Origin: Olsenella uli DSM 7084
GTDB taxonomy: Bacteria > Actinomycetota > Coriobacteriia > Coriobacteriales > Atopobiaceae
Length of the DNA stretch: 64,000 nucleotides
Assembly (NCBI RefSeq): GCF_000143845.1
Contig: NC_014363.1
Coordinates: 977,186 to 1,041,185, forward strand
Direction: 5' to 3'
The translations under genes and the position numbers were made by a program. The notes beneath the pieces were generated by a model. It made no database searches and was not told where the DNA came from. It was given only the letters and a program-made list of their open reading frames with translations. This document shows, piece by piece, positions 21,488 to 28,182 of this stretch (its first letter is position 1; every line of letters starts with the position of its first letter).

Positions 21488-23584
21488 ATGGCAGAGACCA
21501 AGGATTTCCTGCTCGAGGTCGGCTGCGAGGAGATGCCCTCGGCACCGCTCGCAAGCGCGCAGGCCCAACTTGCCCGGCTTTCCGCATCCGCGCTCACGGA
21601 TGCGGGGCTTGCCCACGGCGCCATCGAGTGCCACTCCACGCCTCGCCGTCTCTCCGTGCTCGTGCATGACGTCGCGATGGCGACCGAAGAGGTCCACGAG
21701 GTCAGGCGTGGCCCTGCCACGGGCATCGCCTTCGACGCCGAGGGCAGGCCCACCAAGGCGGCCCAGGGCTTCGCGCGGAAGATGGGCCTTGGTGCGGAGC
21801 AGCTCGTCGTGCGCGGGGACGGCGATGGCAAGGACTATGTCTTCGCCGAGACGAGCATTCCCTCGCGCCCCGCACAGCCCATCCTCAGCGCGGCGGCGAA
21901 ACGGCTCATAGCCTCGCTCGAATGGCCCAACTATCGCAGCCAGCGCTGGGGATCCGAGCACGCGACCTTCGTCCGTCCCGTTCGCTGGATCTGCGCGCTT
22001 CTGGGCGACGAGGTCATCCCCGTCTCCTTCGCGGACGTCACCAGCTCGAACGCGACGCGTGGCCACCGCGTCCTCGGCGCGGGGGAACATGCCATAGCCA
22101 ACCCCTCCGCCTATCGCGAGACGCTTCGGTCGGCAGGCGTCATGCTCGAGGACGAGCGCCGCGAGGCCATCCTCGCTGGCGTCGCGCGCATCGAGGAGGA
22201 ACGTGGGGGCGCACACGTCGACACCCCGCGTCGCGTCCTCGACGAGGTCGTGAACCTCTGCGAGTGGCCGACGCTCCTCGTGGGGAGGTTCGATGAGGAG
22301 TTCCTCGCCGTGCCGCACGAGATCATCTGCGAGTCGATGCTCTCCAACCAGCGCTACTTCCCGATCTATGACGCAAGCGGCGCCCTCACGCGGGAGTTCG
22401 TGGTCGTCTCGAACGCCGACCCTGCGGTTTCACCCACGGTGGTGGCCGGCAACGAGCGCGTCGTACGCGCCCGCCTCGACGATGCCAAGTTCTTCTATGA
22501 CGAGGACCTCAAGGTCCCCTTGGACGACTTTGTCGAGAGGCTCGACCGCGTCACCTTCCAGGAGCGTCTCGGCACGATGCGCCAGAAGGTCGAGCGTATG
22601 GAGTCGCTTTCGGCTGAGGTCGCCCGTGGGGCAGGGCAGGGCGAGGAGGTCGCTCGCCTGGCCAGGCGTGCCGCACACCTCGCCAAGGCCGATCTCGTGA
22701 GCCAGGCCGTCGTGGAGTTCACCAACCAGCAGGGCGTCATGGGCGGCTACTATGCCAAGGCCGCTGGAGAACCCGCCGAGGTCGCCAGCGCCATCCGGGA
22801 GCACTACCGTCCGCGCTTCGCCGGCGACGCGCTTCCCGAGGGCGTCGTGGGCAAGGCGGTCGCCATCGCCGACAAGCTCGACACCATCTGCGGGATGTTT
22901 GCGATAGACGAGCCCCCGACCGGTTCGTCCGACCCCTTCGCACAGCGCCGAGCCGCCATCGGCATCATCGCCATGGCGCGCGCCATGCCCACGCTGAGCC
23001 TCCGTCCCCTGATCGGGGCCGCACTGGACGCCTATGCGCGCCAGGGCCTCGCCTTCGACGCCGGAGACGTTGCCGAGAAGGTGGCCCTGTTCTTTGCGGG
23101 GCGCCTTGCGACCATCGCCAGGGACGACGGCGTCTCTCCCGATACCATCGAGGCCGTCTCCTCCGTCGGCGTCATCGACCCGGACGAGTTCCTCCACCGC
23201 GCCCACGCGCTCGACGGTGCCCGTGCCGATGCGCCCGAGGTCTTCGATGACCTCGCCACGGCATACGCACGTGCAGCCCACCTGGGCGATGCCCGCCTTG
23301 GCACGACGGTCGACGAGGCTCTCATGGGGCAGGCCGAAAGGGAGCTCCTGCATGCCTGCGAGCGGGGTGCGGGAAATGTGGAGAAGTCGTTGTCGATGAG
23401 GGACTTCGACGGCGCGTGCAGGGCCCTCGCCGAGCTGAAGGAACCAATCGACCATTTCTTTGATGACGTCCTCGTCATGGACGAGGACACTGTGCTAAGG
23501 GAGAACCGCCTGCGGCTGCTGAATAAGTTCGCTTCCGTATTCAGTGGCGTGGCAGACATCGGGGCGCTCTCCAGGAGGAAGTAG
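21488..23584 (+). CDS. glyS: Glycyl-tRNA synthetase beta subunit
   Basis: tRNA-binding subunit of glycyl-tRNA synthetase. The 698-residue protein starts DFLLEVGCEEMPSAPL and has HD-like and C-terminal DALR anticodon-binding regions (VEKSLSMRDFDGACRALAEL near residue 635). VRPVRWICALLGDEVIPV is family-typical. ATG 21488 follows the glyQ stop after one base, with ggggaggtgg as SD. Use of the alpha2beta2 enzyme is compatible with Coriobacteriia. Confidence 0.97.
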   Translation: MAETKDFLLEVGCEEMPSAPLASAQAQLARLSASALTDAGLAHGAIECHSTPRRLSVLVHDVAMATEEVHEVRRGPATGIAFDAEGRPTKAAQGFARKMGLGAEQLVVRGDGDGKDYVFAETSIPSRPAQPILSAAAKRLIASLEWPNYRSQRWGSEHATFVRPVRWICALLGDEVIPVSFADVTSSNATRGHRVLGAGEHAIANPSAYRETLRSAGVMLEDERREAILAGVARIEEERGGAHVDTPRRVLDEVVNLCEWPTLLVGRFDEEFLAVPHEIICESMLSNQRYFPIYDASGALTREFVVVSNADPAVSPTVVAGNERVVRARLDDAKFFYDEDLKVPLDDFVERLDRVTFQERLGTMRQKVERMESLSAEVARGAGQGEEVARLARRAAHLAKADLVSQAVVEFTNQQGVMGGYYAKAAGEPAEVASAIREHYRPRFAGDALPEGVVGKAVAIADKLDTICGMFAIDEPPTGSSDPFAQRRAAIGIIAMARAMPTLSLRPLIGAALDAYARQGLAFDAGDVAEKVALFFAGRLATIARDDGVSPDTIEAVSSVGVIDPDEFLHRAHALDGARADAPEVFDDLATAYARAAHLGDARLGTTVDEALMGQAERELLHACERGAGNVEKSLSMRDFDGACRALAELKEPIDHFFDDVLVMDEDTVLRENRLRLLNKFASVFSGVADIGALSRRK

Positions 23585-23590
23585 GCACGG

Positions 23591-23619
23591 GCCCCGCCCA
23601 AGGGGCCCTCGGGCGGGGC
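23591..23619 (+). terminator. GC-rich hairpin after glyS (possible terminator)
   Basis: Perfect 9-bp arms gccccgccc (23591-23599) and gggcggggc (23611-23619) with an 11-nt loop. No U-run follows, so it may pause or attenuate rather than terminate between glyS and the next gene. Confidence 0.5.
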
Positions 23620-23652
23620 TGGGTCCACGGCCCCGGTGATTTGGAGGGAACT

Positions 23653-24051
23653 ATGACGGACGTCACGACAGGAGAAGAGATTCCCGAGGTCACTCCCATA
23701 GTGTTTGTCATCTCGGACGCGCGCGGCAAGACGGCGACCGGCGTCGTCGAGGCGGCAGCCTCCCAGTTTGGCGAGGAGGCCGTCGTGATCAAGCAGCTGG
23801 GAAACGTCCACAGCGTCAGCATGGTCTGCGACTACCTTGACAAAAACGTCGACCCCGACCTGCCCCTTGCGGTCTTCCACACCATCGTCGACCGCAACCT
23901 CCGCCGCGACATCCGTCGCGAGCTCGACAAGAGGGGCATCCCCTCGATCGACCTTCTCGGGCCCTCTATCACCGTGATCTCTACCCTGACGGGCGAGGAG
24001 CCCAAGTACGAGCCAGGCCGCAGGACCGTGACCGAGGTCGAGACCCTCTAG
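23653..24051 (+). CDS. Half-length DUF299 protein: N-terminal domain of a PPDK/PEP-synthase regulatory protein
   Basis: A 132-residue protein that matches only the first half of the DUF299 bifunctional kinase/pyrophosphorylase family (about 270 residues). It opens with VFVISDARGKTATGVVEAAA, has the mid-domain LLGPSITVISTLTGEEPKYE and stops right after EPGRR. In full-length proteins that point is followed by a linker and the P-loop kinase domain (GxSRTSKTPLS). None of that follows here. An SD, ttggaggga, supports ATG 23653. It lies directly upstream of ppdK, so it probably still acts on or with PPDK, but catalysis cannot be assumed. Confidence 0.78.
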   Translation: MTDVTTGEEIPEVTPIVFVISDARGKTATGVVEAAASQFGEEAVVIKQLGNVHSVSMVCDYLDKNVDPDLPLAVFHTIVDRNLRRDIRRELDKRGIPSIDLLGPSITVISTLTGEEPKYEPGRRTVTEVETL

Positions 24052-24191
24052 ACGCTTTTTGCGCAGACTTTCCACTATAGGCCATGTTGGGGGCCCTGTT
24101 CCCGCAAACCTCCCTGACAGCTCATTTGGTGCCGTTGGGCGGAGGGCGGTCGCCGGGGGTGTGCCTCTGGATAAAATAGCTTCGTTATGAA

Positions 24192-24229
24192 GAGCGCCTG
24201 CCGTGAGCTTCATCTCACCGCAGGTGCTC
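24192..24229 (+). promoter_or_regulatory. Stem-loop in the ppdK leader
   Basis: An imperfect hairpin: gagcgcctgccgtgag pairs with ctcaccgcaggtgctc with one mismatch and one G-U pair around a 6-nt loop. It lies in the 234-nt gap between the DUF299 gene and ppdK and is not followed by a U-run. A TAAAAT hexamer at 24172-24177 could be a -10 box, without a clear -35. No degraded coding sequence for the missing DUF299 C-terminal half is visible in this gap. Confidence 0.4.
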
Positions 24230-24285
24230 TCGCGTAAGGCAAGGGGTGCTCGCGTGCCCCGTGGCAACGAGATCAGGGGTGTCAT

Positions 24286-27051
24286 ATGGCTGAGAAGCAC
24301 GTGTATCGTTTCGGCATGGACGAAGACGGTAACAACGTTACCGAGGTCGCAGGCAAGACCGTCAACGAGGCCAAGTGGATCACCGGCGGCAAGGGCGCCA
24401 ACCTCGCCGAGATGGCCAACATCGGCCTTCCCGTCCCCCCGGGATTCTCCATCACCTGCCAGACCTGCGTCGCCTATTCCAGCGCTGGTAACGTTTGGCC
24501 TGAGGGCGTCCTCGATGAGATTGACGAGTATCGTGCCGACCTTGAGAGGCGCATGGGAAAGAGGCTCGGCGACAAGGATGACCCGCTGCTCGTCTCCGTC
24601 CGCTCCGGCGCGCCCTTCTCCATGCCTGGCATGATGGACACGGTGCTCAACCTCGGCCTCAACGACGAATCCGTCCAGGGCCTCATCAAGCAGACCAACA
24701 ACGAGCGTTTCGCGTGGGACTCCTATCGCCGCTTCGTCCAGATGTTCTCCGGCGTCGTCATGGGCGTCGACGGCCAGCTCTTCGAGGACGCCATCAACAA
24801 GAAGAAGGCAGACAAGGGCGTCAAGCTCGACACCGACCTCGACGCCGCCGACCTCAGGGACCTGACCGAGACCTTCAAGGGCATATTCGCCAAAAACGTC
24901 GACTCGCAGGCCCACCCCGAGGTCGCGCCCAACGGCATCGCCACCTTCCCGCAGGATCCCTACCTGCAGCTCCGCCTTGCCGAGCAGGCCGTGTTCGGCT
25001 CCTGGAACACCGAGCGCGCCATCCTCTACCGCAAGCAGAACAAGATTGACGACTCCCTCGGTACGGCCGTCAACGTCCAGGTCATGGTCTTCGGCAACAA
25101 GGGCGAGACCTCCGCTACGGGCGTCGCGTTCACGCGCAACCCCGCCGACGGCACCAACGAGCGTTACGGCGACTTCTTGGTCAACGCCCAGGGCGAGGAC
25201 GTCGTGGCCGGCATCCGCAACACCGAGCCCATCGCAGACCTGCCCAAGATCCCTGGTCTCGAGAAGGCCGGCAAGGACCTCTACCACGTCTTCGAGATCC
25301 TCGAGGACCACTACGCGGACATGATGGACCTCGAGTTCACCATCGAGCAGGGCAAGCTCTGGATGCTCCAGACCCGTGTGGGCAAGCGCACCGCCCTCTC
25401 TGCGCTCAAGGTCGCCATGCAGATGGTCGAGGAGGGTCGCATCACCCAGGAGCAGGCCATCATGCGCGTCGCCCCGTCTCAGCTCGACCAGCTCCTGCAC
25501 CCGCAGTTCGACCCCAAGGCCAAGCTGGACGTCGTGGCCAAGGGCATGAACGCGTCACCCGGCGCGGCGGTGGGCGCCGTCGTCTTCTCCTCTGACGCCG
25601 CCGTCCACTACGCCAACATCGAGAAGCCCTGCATCCTCGTCCGCTGGGAGACCACCCCTGACGACCTCAAGGGCATGGTCGCCGCCGAGGGCATCCTCAC
25701 GTCACATGGCGGCAAGACCTCGCATGCCGCCGTCATAGCCCGCGGCATGGGCACGCCTTGCGTCTGCGGCGCCGAGGCGCTGAGGATCGATGCCAAGGCC
25801 AAGGAGTGCGTCATCTCCGGCACCAATGCCGTCCTGCACGAGGGCGACATCATCTCCATCAACGGCACGACCGGTGACATCATCCTGGGCGCCGTGCCCC
25901 TTACGCGCCCCGAGCTCACCGGTGACCTCGAGACCATCCTCGGATGGGCCGACGACGTCCGCCGCGACGCCTCCCGCGGTCGGCTGTTCGGCGTCCGCAC
26001 CAACGCGGACAACCCCGAGGACGCCCAGCTGTCCGTCGACTTCGGTGCTGAGGGCATCGGCCTCGACCGCACCGAGCACATGTTCCTGGGCGAGCGCAAG
26101 GAGATCATCCAGTCCTTCATCCTTGCTGACAACGACGGCCAGAAACAGCAGGCACTCGGACAGCTTCTCAAGGCGCAGACTGGTGACTTCGAGGGCATGT
26201 TCAAGGCGATGGACGGCAAGGCCGTCATCGTCCGCCTCCTCGACCCGCCCCTGCACGAGTTCCTCGACGACCCGCGCGAGCTTGCCGTCGAGATCGCCCA
26301 CGCCGAGGGCCGTGGCGAGACGGAGATCCAGATCAAGGCCATGCGCGACCGCCTCGCCCGCCTGGACTCCTTCCAGGAGGCCAACCCCATGCTCGGCCTG
26401 CGCGGCTGCCGTCTGGGCATCGTCTACCCCGAGCTCAACGACATGCAGGTCCGTGCCATTGCCGCCGCCGCGGCCAAGCTTAAGAAGCAGGGCCTCGATC
26501 CCAGGCCCGAGATCATGGTGCCGCTGATTTCCACCGTCGAGGAGCTCAAGCTCGTCCGCGCCCAGATCGAGGCCGGCGTCCACGCCGTCGCCGAGGCGGA
26601 GGGCGTCGAGCTCAGCATTCCCATCGGCTGCATGATTGAGCTCCCCCGTGCCGCCGTGACTGCCGACGAGATCGGCAAGTACGCCGACTTCTTCTCCTTC
26701 GGAACCAACGACCTCACCCAGACGACCTTCGGCTTCTCCCGCGATGACGTCGAGAGCGCCTTCATCCCCCAGTACCTCAACAAGAAGATCCTGAGGGCCA
26801 ACCCGTTCGAGACGCTGGATTCCGGCGTCGCGAAGCTGGTCGAGATGGGCGTCAAGGGCGGACATGCCGCCAACGACACCATCGTCTGTGGAGTCTGTGG
26901 CGAGACCGGCGGCGACCCCGACTCCATCCAGATGTACTATGACCTCGGTCTCGACTACGTCTCCTGCTCGCCCTACCGCGTGCCCATCGCACGCCTGGCG
27001 GGTGCGCAGGCCAAGATCAGCTCCAACGGCGGACCCCGAAAGCTCGCCTAG
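24286..27051 (+). CDS. ppdK: Pyruvate, phosphate dikinase
   Basis: Interconverts pyruvate, ATP and phosphate with PEP, AMP and pyrophosphate. Domains in order: ATP-grasp nucleotide-binding (ITGGKGANLAEMANIG), phosphohistidine domain with HGGKTSHAAVIARGMG (catalytic His480; Thr478 is the site used by DUF299 regulators in this family), and the PEP/pyruvate TIM barrel (GANDTI, CGVCGETGGDP near the C-terminus). Length 921 residues. The adjacent regulator gene is half-length. A strong terminator follows. Confidence 0.97.
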   Translation: MAEKHVYRFGMDEDGNNVTEVAGKTVNEAKWITGGKGANLAEMANIGLPVPPGFSITCQTCVAYSSAGNVWPEGVLDEIDEYRADLERRMGKRLGDKDDPLLVSVRSGAPFSMPGMMDTVLNLGLNDESVQGLIKQTNNERFAWDSYRRFVQMFSGVVMGVDGQLFEDAINKKKADKGVKLDTDLDAADLRDLTETFKGIFAKNVDSQAHPEVAPNGIATFPQDPYLQLRLAEQAVFGSWNTERAILYRKQNKIDDSLGTAVNVQVMVFGNKGETSATGVAFTRNPADGTNERYGDFLVNAQGEDVVAGIRNTEPIADLPKIPGLEKAGKDLYHVFEILEDHYADMMDLEFTIEQGKLWMLQTRVGKRTALSALKVAMQMVEEGRITQEQAIMRVAPSQLDQLLHPQFDPKAKLDVVAKGMNASPGAAVGAVVFSSDAAVHYANIEKPCILVRWETTPDDLKGMVAAEGILTSHGGKTSHAAVIARGMGTPCVCGAEALRIDAKAKECVISGTNAVLHEGDIISINGTTGDIILGAVPLTRPELTGDLETILGWADDVRRDASRGRLFGVRTNADNPEDAQLSVDFGAEGIGLDRTEHMFLGERKEIIQSFILADNDGQKQQALGQLLKAQTGDFEGMFKAMDGKAVIVRLLDPPLHEFLDDPRELAVEIAHAEGRGETEIQIKAMRDRLARLDSFQEANPMLGLRGCRLGIVYPELNDMQVRAIAAAAAKLKKQGLDPRPEIMVPLISTVEELKLVRAQIEAGVHAVAEAEGVELSIPIGCMIELPRAAVTADEIGKYADFFSFGTNDLTQTTFGFSRDDVESAFIPQYLNKKILRANPFETLDSGVAKLVEMGVKGGHAANDTIVCGVCGETGGDPDSIQMYYDLGLDYVSCSPYRVPIARLAGAQAKISSNGGPRKLA

Positions 27052-27126: not shown

Positions 27127-28182
27127 ATGGACATCATCGACAGGGAGACGCTGGAGCGACGCGAGCACGAGCTGCTCAGCCCATGGGCCTGCCACTCCGA
27201 CGAGAGCTCCGGCCGCACGCGGGAAGAGGAGCCAGACCCCTTGCGGACCTGCTTCCAATGCGACCGCGACAGGATCCTGCACAGCAAGAGCTTCAGGCGG
27301 CTCGCCAACAAGACACAGGTCTTCTTGGCGCCGGAGGGAGACCACTATCGCACCCGCCTCACCCACACCCTCGAGGTCGCCCAGATCGCCTGCGCAATCG
27401 CACGTCCCCTGGGGCTTAACGTCGACCTCACCGAGGCCATAGCCCTTGGCCATGACCTGGGCCACACGCCCTTTGGGCACTGCGGCGAACGGGCACTCCA
27501 GCGCGCCATGGCACGCAGGCTGTGCTGTGACTCCGACGACCCGCGACTCTTCCGTCACAACGAGCAGAGCGCCCGCATCGTCTGCCTGCTAGAGAAGGAC
27601 GGCCTCGGTCTCAACCTCACCCGCGAGACCATAGACGGCATCGTCAACCACAACCAAGGGACGGCGGCGCACACGCTCGAAGGCCAGGTGGTCGCCCGGG
27701 CAGACCGCATGGCCTACGTGACGCATGACATGGATGACGCCAAGAGGGCCGGCATCCTGAGCGAGGAGTCGCTTCCCGCGGACCTGCGCCGCATCCTGGG
27801 ATCCAGCTCGTCGGAGCGCATAGAGACCATGGTGCACGACGCGGTCAGCGCGAGTGCCCAGTGCGGAAAGATCGCCATGTCAGACGTAGTGTGGGACGCC
27901 ATGATGGGGATGAGGCGCTTCCTGTCAGAGAACCTGTACACTCGTGGCGAGGCGAAGCGCGAGGAACCCAAGGCTGCCCATCTTGTGGAGGAGCTGTTCA
28001 CGCACTTCGTACGCCATCCGGACGAGATCCCGGCCGAGTACCGCTCTCGCAGGCAGGACTCCGTGGACGTCCAGGCGGCAGACTACGTGAGCAGCATGAC
28101 CGACCGCTATGCCATCCGACTCTACGAGGAGCTTAACGTGCCCAAGGCCTGGAGCCTGTCCGACCAGCGGGGCGACAGCTGA
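27127..28182 (+). CDS. dgt: dGTPase-like HD-domain deoxynucleoside triphosphate triphosphohydrolase
   Basis: Predicted to hydrolyse dNTPs to deoxynucleosides and triphosphate. The HD motifs are clear: RTRLTHTLEVAQIACAIA near residue 77 and ALGHDLGHTPFGHCGE near residue 111, with a later Asp-bearing helix DRMAYVTHDMDD. FQCDRDRILHSKSFRRLANKTQVF is the standard family lead-in. ATG 27127 has gggaggcgc 4-5 nt upstream and is preferred to the earlier in-frame start inside the terminator. Length 351 residues. Substrate range is inferred from family. Confidence 0.9.
   Translation: MDIIDRETLERREHELLSPWACHSDESSGRTREEEPDPLRTCFQCDRDRILHSKSFRRLANKTQVFLAPEGDHYRTRLTHTLEVAQIACAIARPLGLNVDLTEAIALGHDLGHTPFGHCGERALQRAMARRLCCDSDDPRLFRHNEQSARIVCLLEKDGLGLNLTRETIDGIVNHNQGTAAHTLEGQVVARADRMAYVTHDMDDAKRAGILSEESLPADLRRILGSSSSERIETMVHDAVSASAQCGKIAMSDVVWDAMMGMRRFLSENLYTRGEAKREEPKAAHLVEELFTHFVRHPDEIPAEYRSRRQDSVDVQAADYVSSMTDRYAIRLYEELNVPKAWSLSDQRGDS

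Follow-up and report, generated by a model that had tools for sequence, protein, structure and literature searches.

The 132-residue protein encoded directly upstream of ppdK in the window (the whole 64-kb stretch analysed here, bases 977186-1041185 of the source genome G000, a single contig of 2,051,896 bases) is a genuine DUF299 N-terminal half, and its truncation is ancient, not recent. The half-length protein recurs at this locus, beside ppdK, in some 20 further genera of the Atopobiaceae, a family of gut and mouth bacteria, and hence is not a product of chance. The nearest named relatives of the source genome are the genera Olsenella, Parafannyhessea and Olegusella. In the explanation that we favour, and to which we give roughly an even chance, the half is an old and selected stand-alone domain that arose by loss of the C-terminal half in place, and that would modulate PPDK in trans as an adenylate sensor or docking subunit without enzymatic activity.

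The locus and the missing catalytic half

The gene and its neighbours are listed below in window coordinates.

21488..23584, + strand: glyS, the upstream neighbour, kept in half and full-length loci (gene neighbourhood comparison)
23640..23646, + strand: Shine-Dalgarno region TTGGAGG of the half gene (sequence)
23653..24051, + strand: stand-alone N-terminal domain of a DUF299/PDRP-type regulator, 132 aa, termed the type I half (PF03618 profile, AF2 model, structural match)
23713..23733, + strand: P-loop-like SDARGKT loop, residues 21-27 (alignment)
24052..24285, + strand: gap in place of the C-terminal half, 234 nt without remnant, with a -10-like box and a strong hairpin in the presumed ppdK leader (sequence)
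24286..27051, + strand: ppdK, 921 aa, with Thr478, Ser479 and His480 (TIGR01828, 1208 bits)
27127..28182, + strand: dgt (dGTP triphosphohydrolase-like), ppdK's downstream neighbour in most related loci (gene neighbourhood comparison)

The sequence of the half gene has a GGAGG Shine-Dalgarno site with the ATG 6 nt downstream. As the initial annotation had indicated, the DUF299 match stops midway: residues 17-125 align with positions 1-107 of the 256 of Pfam PF03618 (E 7e-17). The score of 62.4 bits, against a gathering cut-off of 23.5, places the protein in DUF299, though on N-terminal positions only. NCBIfam PRK05339.1 matches at model positions 6-114 of 270, with 59.5 bits against a curated cut-off of 225. 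The protein has the S-D-x-x-G-x-T loop and the fold that characterise the N-terminal domain of PDRP/PSRP.

The kinase half had been described as missing, without any remnant before ppdK, and this was confirmed by a six-frame motif check of the 234-nt gap and by a genome-wide profile search. We found no C-terminal motif in the gap or anywhere in the window, and the catalytic P-loop G-x-S-R-[TS]-x-K-T-P is absent from the half reading frame, the gap, the window and the genome. The half likewise lacks HDDG and the remainder of the C-terminal domain, expected for a total of about 270-300 aa, and has no C-terminal profile match. A profile built from 10 C-terminal domains gave no match in the complete source genome, where PF03618 matches one place only, the half gene. 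The same profile gave no match in the other half-only genomes tested, a single hit at E 0.16 in G016 being noise. The idea that the half pairs with a separate SRTSKTP-type kinase domain is thus unsupported, since neither the source genome nor the half-only genomes tested contain such a domain.

The ppdK gene beside the half has an intact reading frame. The order glyS-[DUF299]-ppdK-dgt is common to half and full-length genes, and because both occupy this one locus we consider that the half arose in place by C-terminal loss. Type I halves lie almost always directly 5' of ppdK. In two genomes (G014 and G018) the half still adjoins glyS while ppdK is elsewhere in the genome, so that the pairing with ppdK is not a strict operon.

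Distribution, age and selection

We searched 104 Atopobiaceae genomes, each at least 90% complete, and found PF03618 matches in 102, full-length in 11 and of N-terminal length only in 91. The latter include one fragment at a contig end (G013) and one genome with only the paralogous type II copy described below (G127). G032 and G089, which gave no match, have ppdK at a contig edge, and the upstream gene may therefore just be missing from the assembly. The half form is also present in complete genomes. In the loci read, type I halves have 125-135 aa and nearly all carry AGGAGG-type Shine-Dalgarno sites. Samples of 198 genomes from the class and 246 from the phylum revealed no N-terminal-only DUF299 outside the Atopobiaceae; there DUF299 is full-length or absent, and partial matches retain the C-terminal part.

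The phylogenies indicate that the C-terminal half was lost at least twice, in a main clade and in genus g20. This is because the tree of N-terminal domains does not place the g20 halves within the main half clade (27 rows, support 98/97), and because the PPDK sequences, in whose tree g20 is nested among full-length genomes, reject a single clade of all halves (p-AU 0.014).

We computed pairwise dN/dS by simple Nei-Gojobori counts, which are rough at high dS. Values for the halves are mostly 0.02-0.31 within genus g4, 0.11 in g20 (L031/L092), 0.06 in g16 (L028/L095) and 0.21 between the window and L039, indicating that the half is under purifying selection. Together with a length conserved in many species, this identifies a selected family and not a pseudogene. 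The initial annotation had argued against simple decay from the clean Shine-Dalgarno site and the intact frame, and the conservation of the half in about 90 species with low dN/dS bears this out. Ten residues (D22, G25, A35, F75, H76, R84, D100, G103, P104 and P117) never vary in the N-terminal domains of full-length Atopobiaceae proteins and are also unchanged, or almost unchanged, across type I halves; within the loop, S21, D22, G25 and T27 are invariant across all aligned type I halves.

A recent truncation, a frameshift or an assembly error is ruled out by the family-wide spread, the low dN/dS and a check of the window sequence. Close relatives with the normal protein and a recently truncated copy here, which would have pointed the other way, were not what we found.

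Two sets of full-length genes deserve mention. One incomplete genome (G033, locus L023) has a full-length DUF299 gene at the glyS-ppdK locus; its PPDK groups inside the half clade and its N-terminal domain does not. This gene may be a replacement or a retained ancestral form. Genus g18 (L024 in G017, L089 in G083) has full-length DUF299 proteins with the catalytic P-loop GLSGSAKT instead of GVSRTSKT, possibly a kinase-dead intermediate; in L024 the DUF299 gene adjoins dgt and ppdK is elsewhere.

Other single-domain DUF299 proteins

A second group of N-terminal-only proteins, the type II halves, forms a clade with support 99/99 in the tree of N-terminal domains and is located away from ppdK. 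The loci are:

Type II N-terminal-only DUF299: L025/L149, L035, L037, L130, L133; L042, L131, L136-L140, L142, L144; also L041, L134

Some lie between deoC and transaldolase (L025/L149 and L035) or beside deoC (L037, L130 and L133), and nine loci in genera g7, g9 and g27 have the half directly 3' of a glycyl-radical-enzyme activase. In L042 the half lies next to the gene of a PFL2-type glycyl-radical enzyme, after which comes a fructose-6-phosphate-aldolase-like gene. Since type II halves occupy these two kinds of operon, the N-terminal domain apparently serves as a free module in several contexts of central carbon metabolism. Like type I halves, they consist of the N-terminal domain only (129-146 aa), with the S-D-x-x-G-x-T loop and the FHT and D-L-L-G motifs. 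Unlike them, they form a separate clade, are not beside ppdK and, in the deoC-linked copies, have a conserved longer C-terminal tail. The two tested against PRK05339.1 (L025 and L042) match far under its cut-off. The model of one type II protein, built from five sequences, has a pLDDT of 78, and its top match is maize PDRP, a weak one (E 1.4e-3).

The mirror form occurs in two genomes of genus g93 (family f14), at about 1960-2460 on the + strand of L146 (G144) and in L150 (G277). These genes encode only the C-terminal domain (MDEAYYRRI...HDDG...SRTSKTP), with their own start and Shine-Dalgarno site directly after glyS. We found no N-terminal DUF299 half in either genome. This form resembles the type I half in being one half of DUF299 directly after glyS, but it is the complementary, catalytic half, with SRTSKTP and HDDG.

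Fold, link to PPDK and candidate roles

The AlphaFold2 model of the half (39 sequences) has a mean pLDDT of 91. Its sole strong Foldseek match in the PDB is AMP-bound maize PDRP (E 5.6e-5). VIA-align superposes the model on maize PDRP 5d0n with Z 14.0 over 119 residues (rmsd 3.3), and the next best match has Z 8.3. Structural matches other than DUF299, with Z of about 8 or less, were set aside as the usual background of Rossmann-like folds. The comparison with a full-length regulator, proposed in the initial annotation, thus predicts that the half folds like maize PDRP. Of the two domains of the maize protein, which reportedly share one fold, the C-terminal one is said to carry out catalysis, while the N-terminal one reportedly binds AMP in a P-loop-like loop and is inactive. 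We take the SDARGKT loop of the half to correspond to this AMP-binding loop.

With the known DUF299 regulators (E. coli PpsR/PSRP, maize PDRP 5d0n/5d1f and the Listeria homologue) the half shares a homologous N-terminal domain of the same fold, and with its full-length relatives it shares the gene neighbourhood and the invariant residues of that domain. It differs from PDRP/PSRP in having no C-terminal domain, catalytic P-loop or HDDG, and in its 132 residues against about 270-300. PDRP/PSRP acts both as an ADP-dependent kinase and as a Pi-dependent pyrophosphorylase (PMC2817694), and without a C-terminal domain the half is very unlikely to be such an enzyme. A PDRP homologue has been stated to be present in all bacteria with PPDK (PMC8100219). 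Judged by their sequences, the Atopobiaceae homologues, mostly half-length, cannot be assumed to be the bifunctional enzyme, and annotation based on PF03618 mislabels the halves as bifunctional kinases/pyrophosphorylases. We found no description of a stand-alone N-terminal DUF299 form in the literature searched.

All 37 Atopobiaceae genomes searched have a PPDK-family match, above the curated cut-off in 31. In the wider order, among the f10 genomes sampled, 15 of the 16 without DUF299 also lack PPDK and all eight with DUF299 have it; three genomes of the order (G253, G239 and G256) have PPDK without a DUF299 match. The conservation of Thr478 and His480 had been noted in the initial annotation. 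The residues are indeed kept, but this is uninformative on regulation, since all Atopobiaceae genomes read share one active-site loop, GGKTSHAAVIARGMG, whether their regulator is full-length or half-length. No PPDK column changes convincingly with the loss of the C-terminal half (the 11 candidate columns are mostly clade markers). The suggestion that control has been lost probably holds for the threonine switch, the ADP/Pi-dependent control of Thr478 having probably disappeared in half-only species, but it leaves the retention of the half unexplained.

A non-catalytic role, one of the possibilities raised at the outset, is the likeliest reading, because the half persists in about 90 species and its dN/dS is low. 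In the favoured explanation, the catalytic C-terminal half would have been deleted in place between glyS and ppdK in an ancestor of most Atopobiaceae. The remaining product would be a small Rossmann-like domain retaining the P-loop-like S-D-x-x-G-x-T loop. We infer that it binds PPDK as an adenylate-sensing or docking subunit and modulates it in trans; nucleotide binding, PPDK as the partner and the direction of the effect are all presumed here.

The domain may instead act on something unrelated to PPDK, since paralogous halves sit in operons without ppdK. It could be a general nucleotide or sugar-phosphate sensor with locus-specific targets, perhaps acting near ppdK on translation, transcription or GlyS. 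The well-supported type II clade in deoC/transaldolase loci and after glycyl-radical-enzyme activases fits this account, as does the type I half that remains with glyS when ppdK relocates. We nevertheless think it rather unlikely, given that loss of DUF299 goes along with loss of PPDK in the wider order and that type I halves almost always directly precede ppdK.

A continued part in reversible phosphorylation of PPDK, by the half alone through its P-loop-like loop or with an unrelated kinase/phosphatase, seems improbable. The main half clade typically has R24, and a subclade around the window K26; neither occurs at its position in full-length Atopobiaceae N-terminal domains. Such basic residues in the SDARGKT loop, acquired once the catalytic half was gone, could suit this role, and Thr478 is kept. 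However, conservation of R24 and K26 does not extend to the halves of g20 or g16. The half also lacks the family's catalytic motifs, HDDG and GVSRTSKTP, and the threonine is retained whatever the type of regulator. That the half is a neutral relic of lost control, slowly decaying or an assembly artefact, would agree with the disappearance of the known activity with the catalytic half, but is very hard to credit given the low dN/dS, the invariant core, a start and length that are clean in some 20 genera, the occurrence of this form in complete genomes as well, and its persistence after separation from ppdK. For the Atopobiaceae as a whole the data refute it, and decay is arguable only for an individual strain.

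Returning to the non-enzymatic subunit, a broader scenario is conceivable but somewhat doubtful: the Atopobiaceae would have made the inert N-terminal domain a free regulatory subunit, parted with the catalytic half on at least two occasions, and then spread the module to deoC/transaldolase and glycyl-radical operons, yielding a family of small nucleotide-sensing adaptors undescribed in the literature searched. Evolution has in any case split the DUF299 domains, with the N-terminal one alone in about 90 species and the C-terminal one alone in one other genus (two genomes), and the division of labour between the domains of PDRP is therefore directly testable. In these anaerobes PPDK is probably not under a threonine-phosphorylation switch, a difference that changes how their glycolysis is to be modelled (PEP + AMP + PPi to pyruvate + ATP + Pi).

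The presumed ppdK leader has features of its own. A -10-like GATAAAATAG at 24170-24179 is followed by a strong hairpin at 24186-24236, about 100 nt 5' of the ppdK start. An Rfam scan of 23500-24400 gave nothing credible, the best two matches (E 0.74 and 0.99) being far under gathering scores. Six other loci (L039, L090, L040, L048, L094 and L028) have hairpins at similar positions with different sequences, and the element is possibly a conserved 5' stem-loop of the ppdK mRNA. In L040 (G008), ppdK is in two overlapping reading frames, probably through a frameshift or an assembly error.
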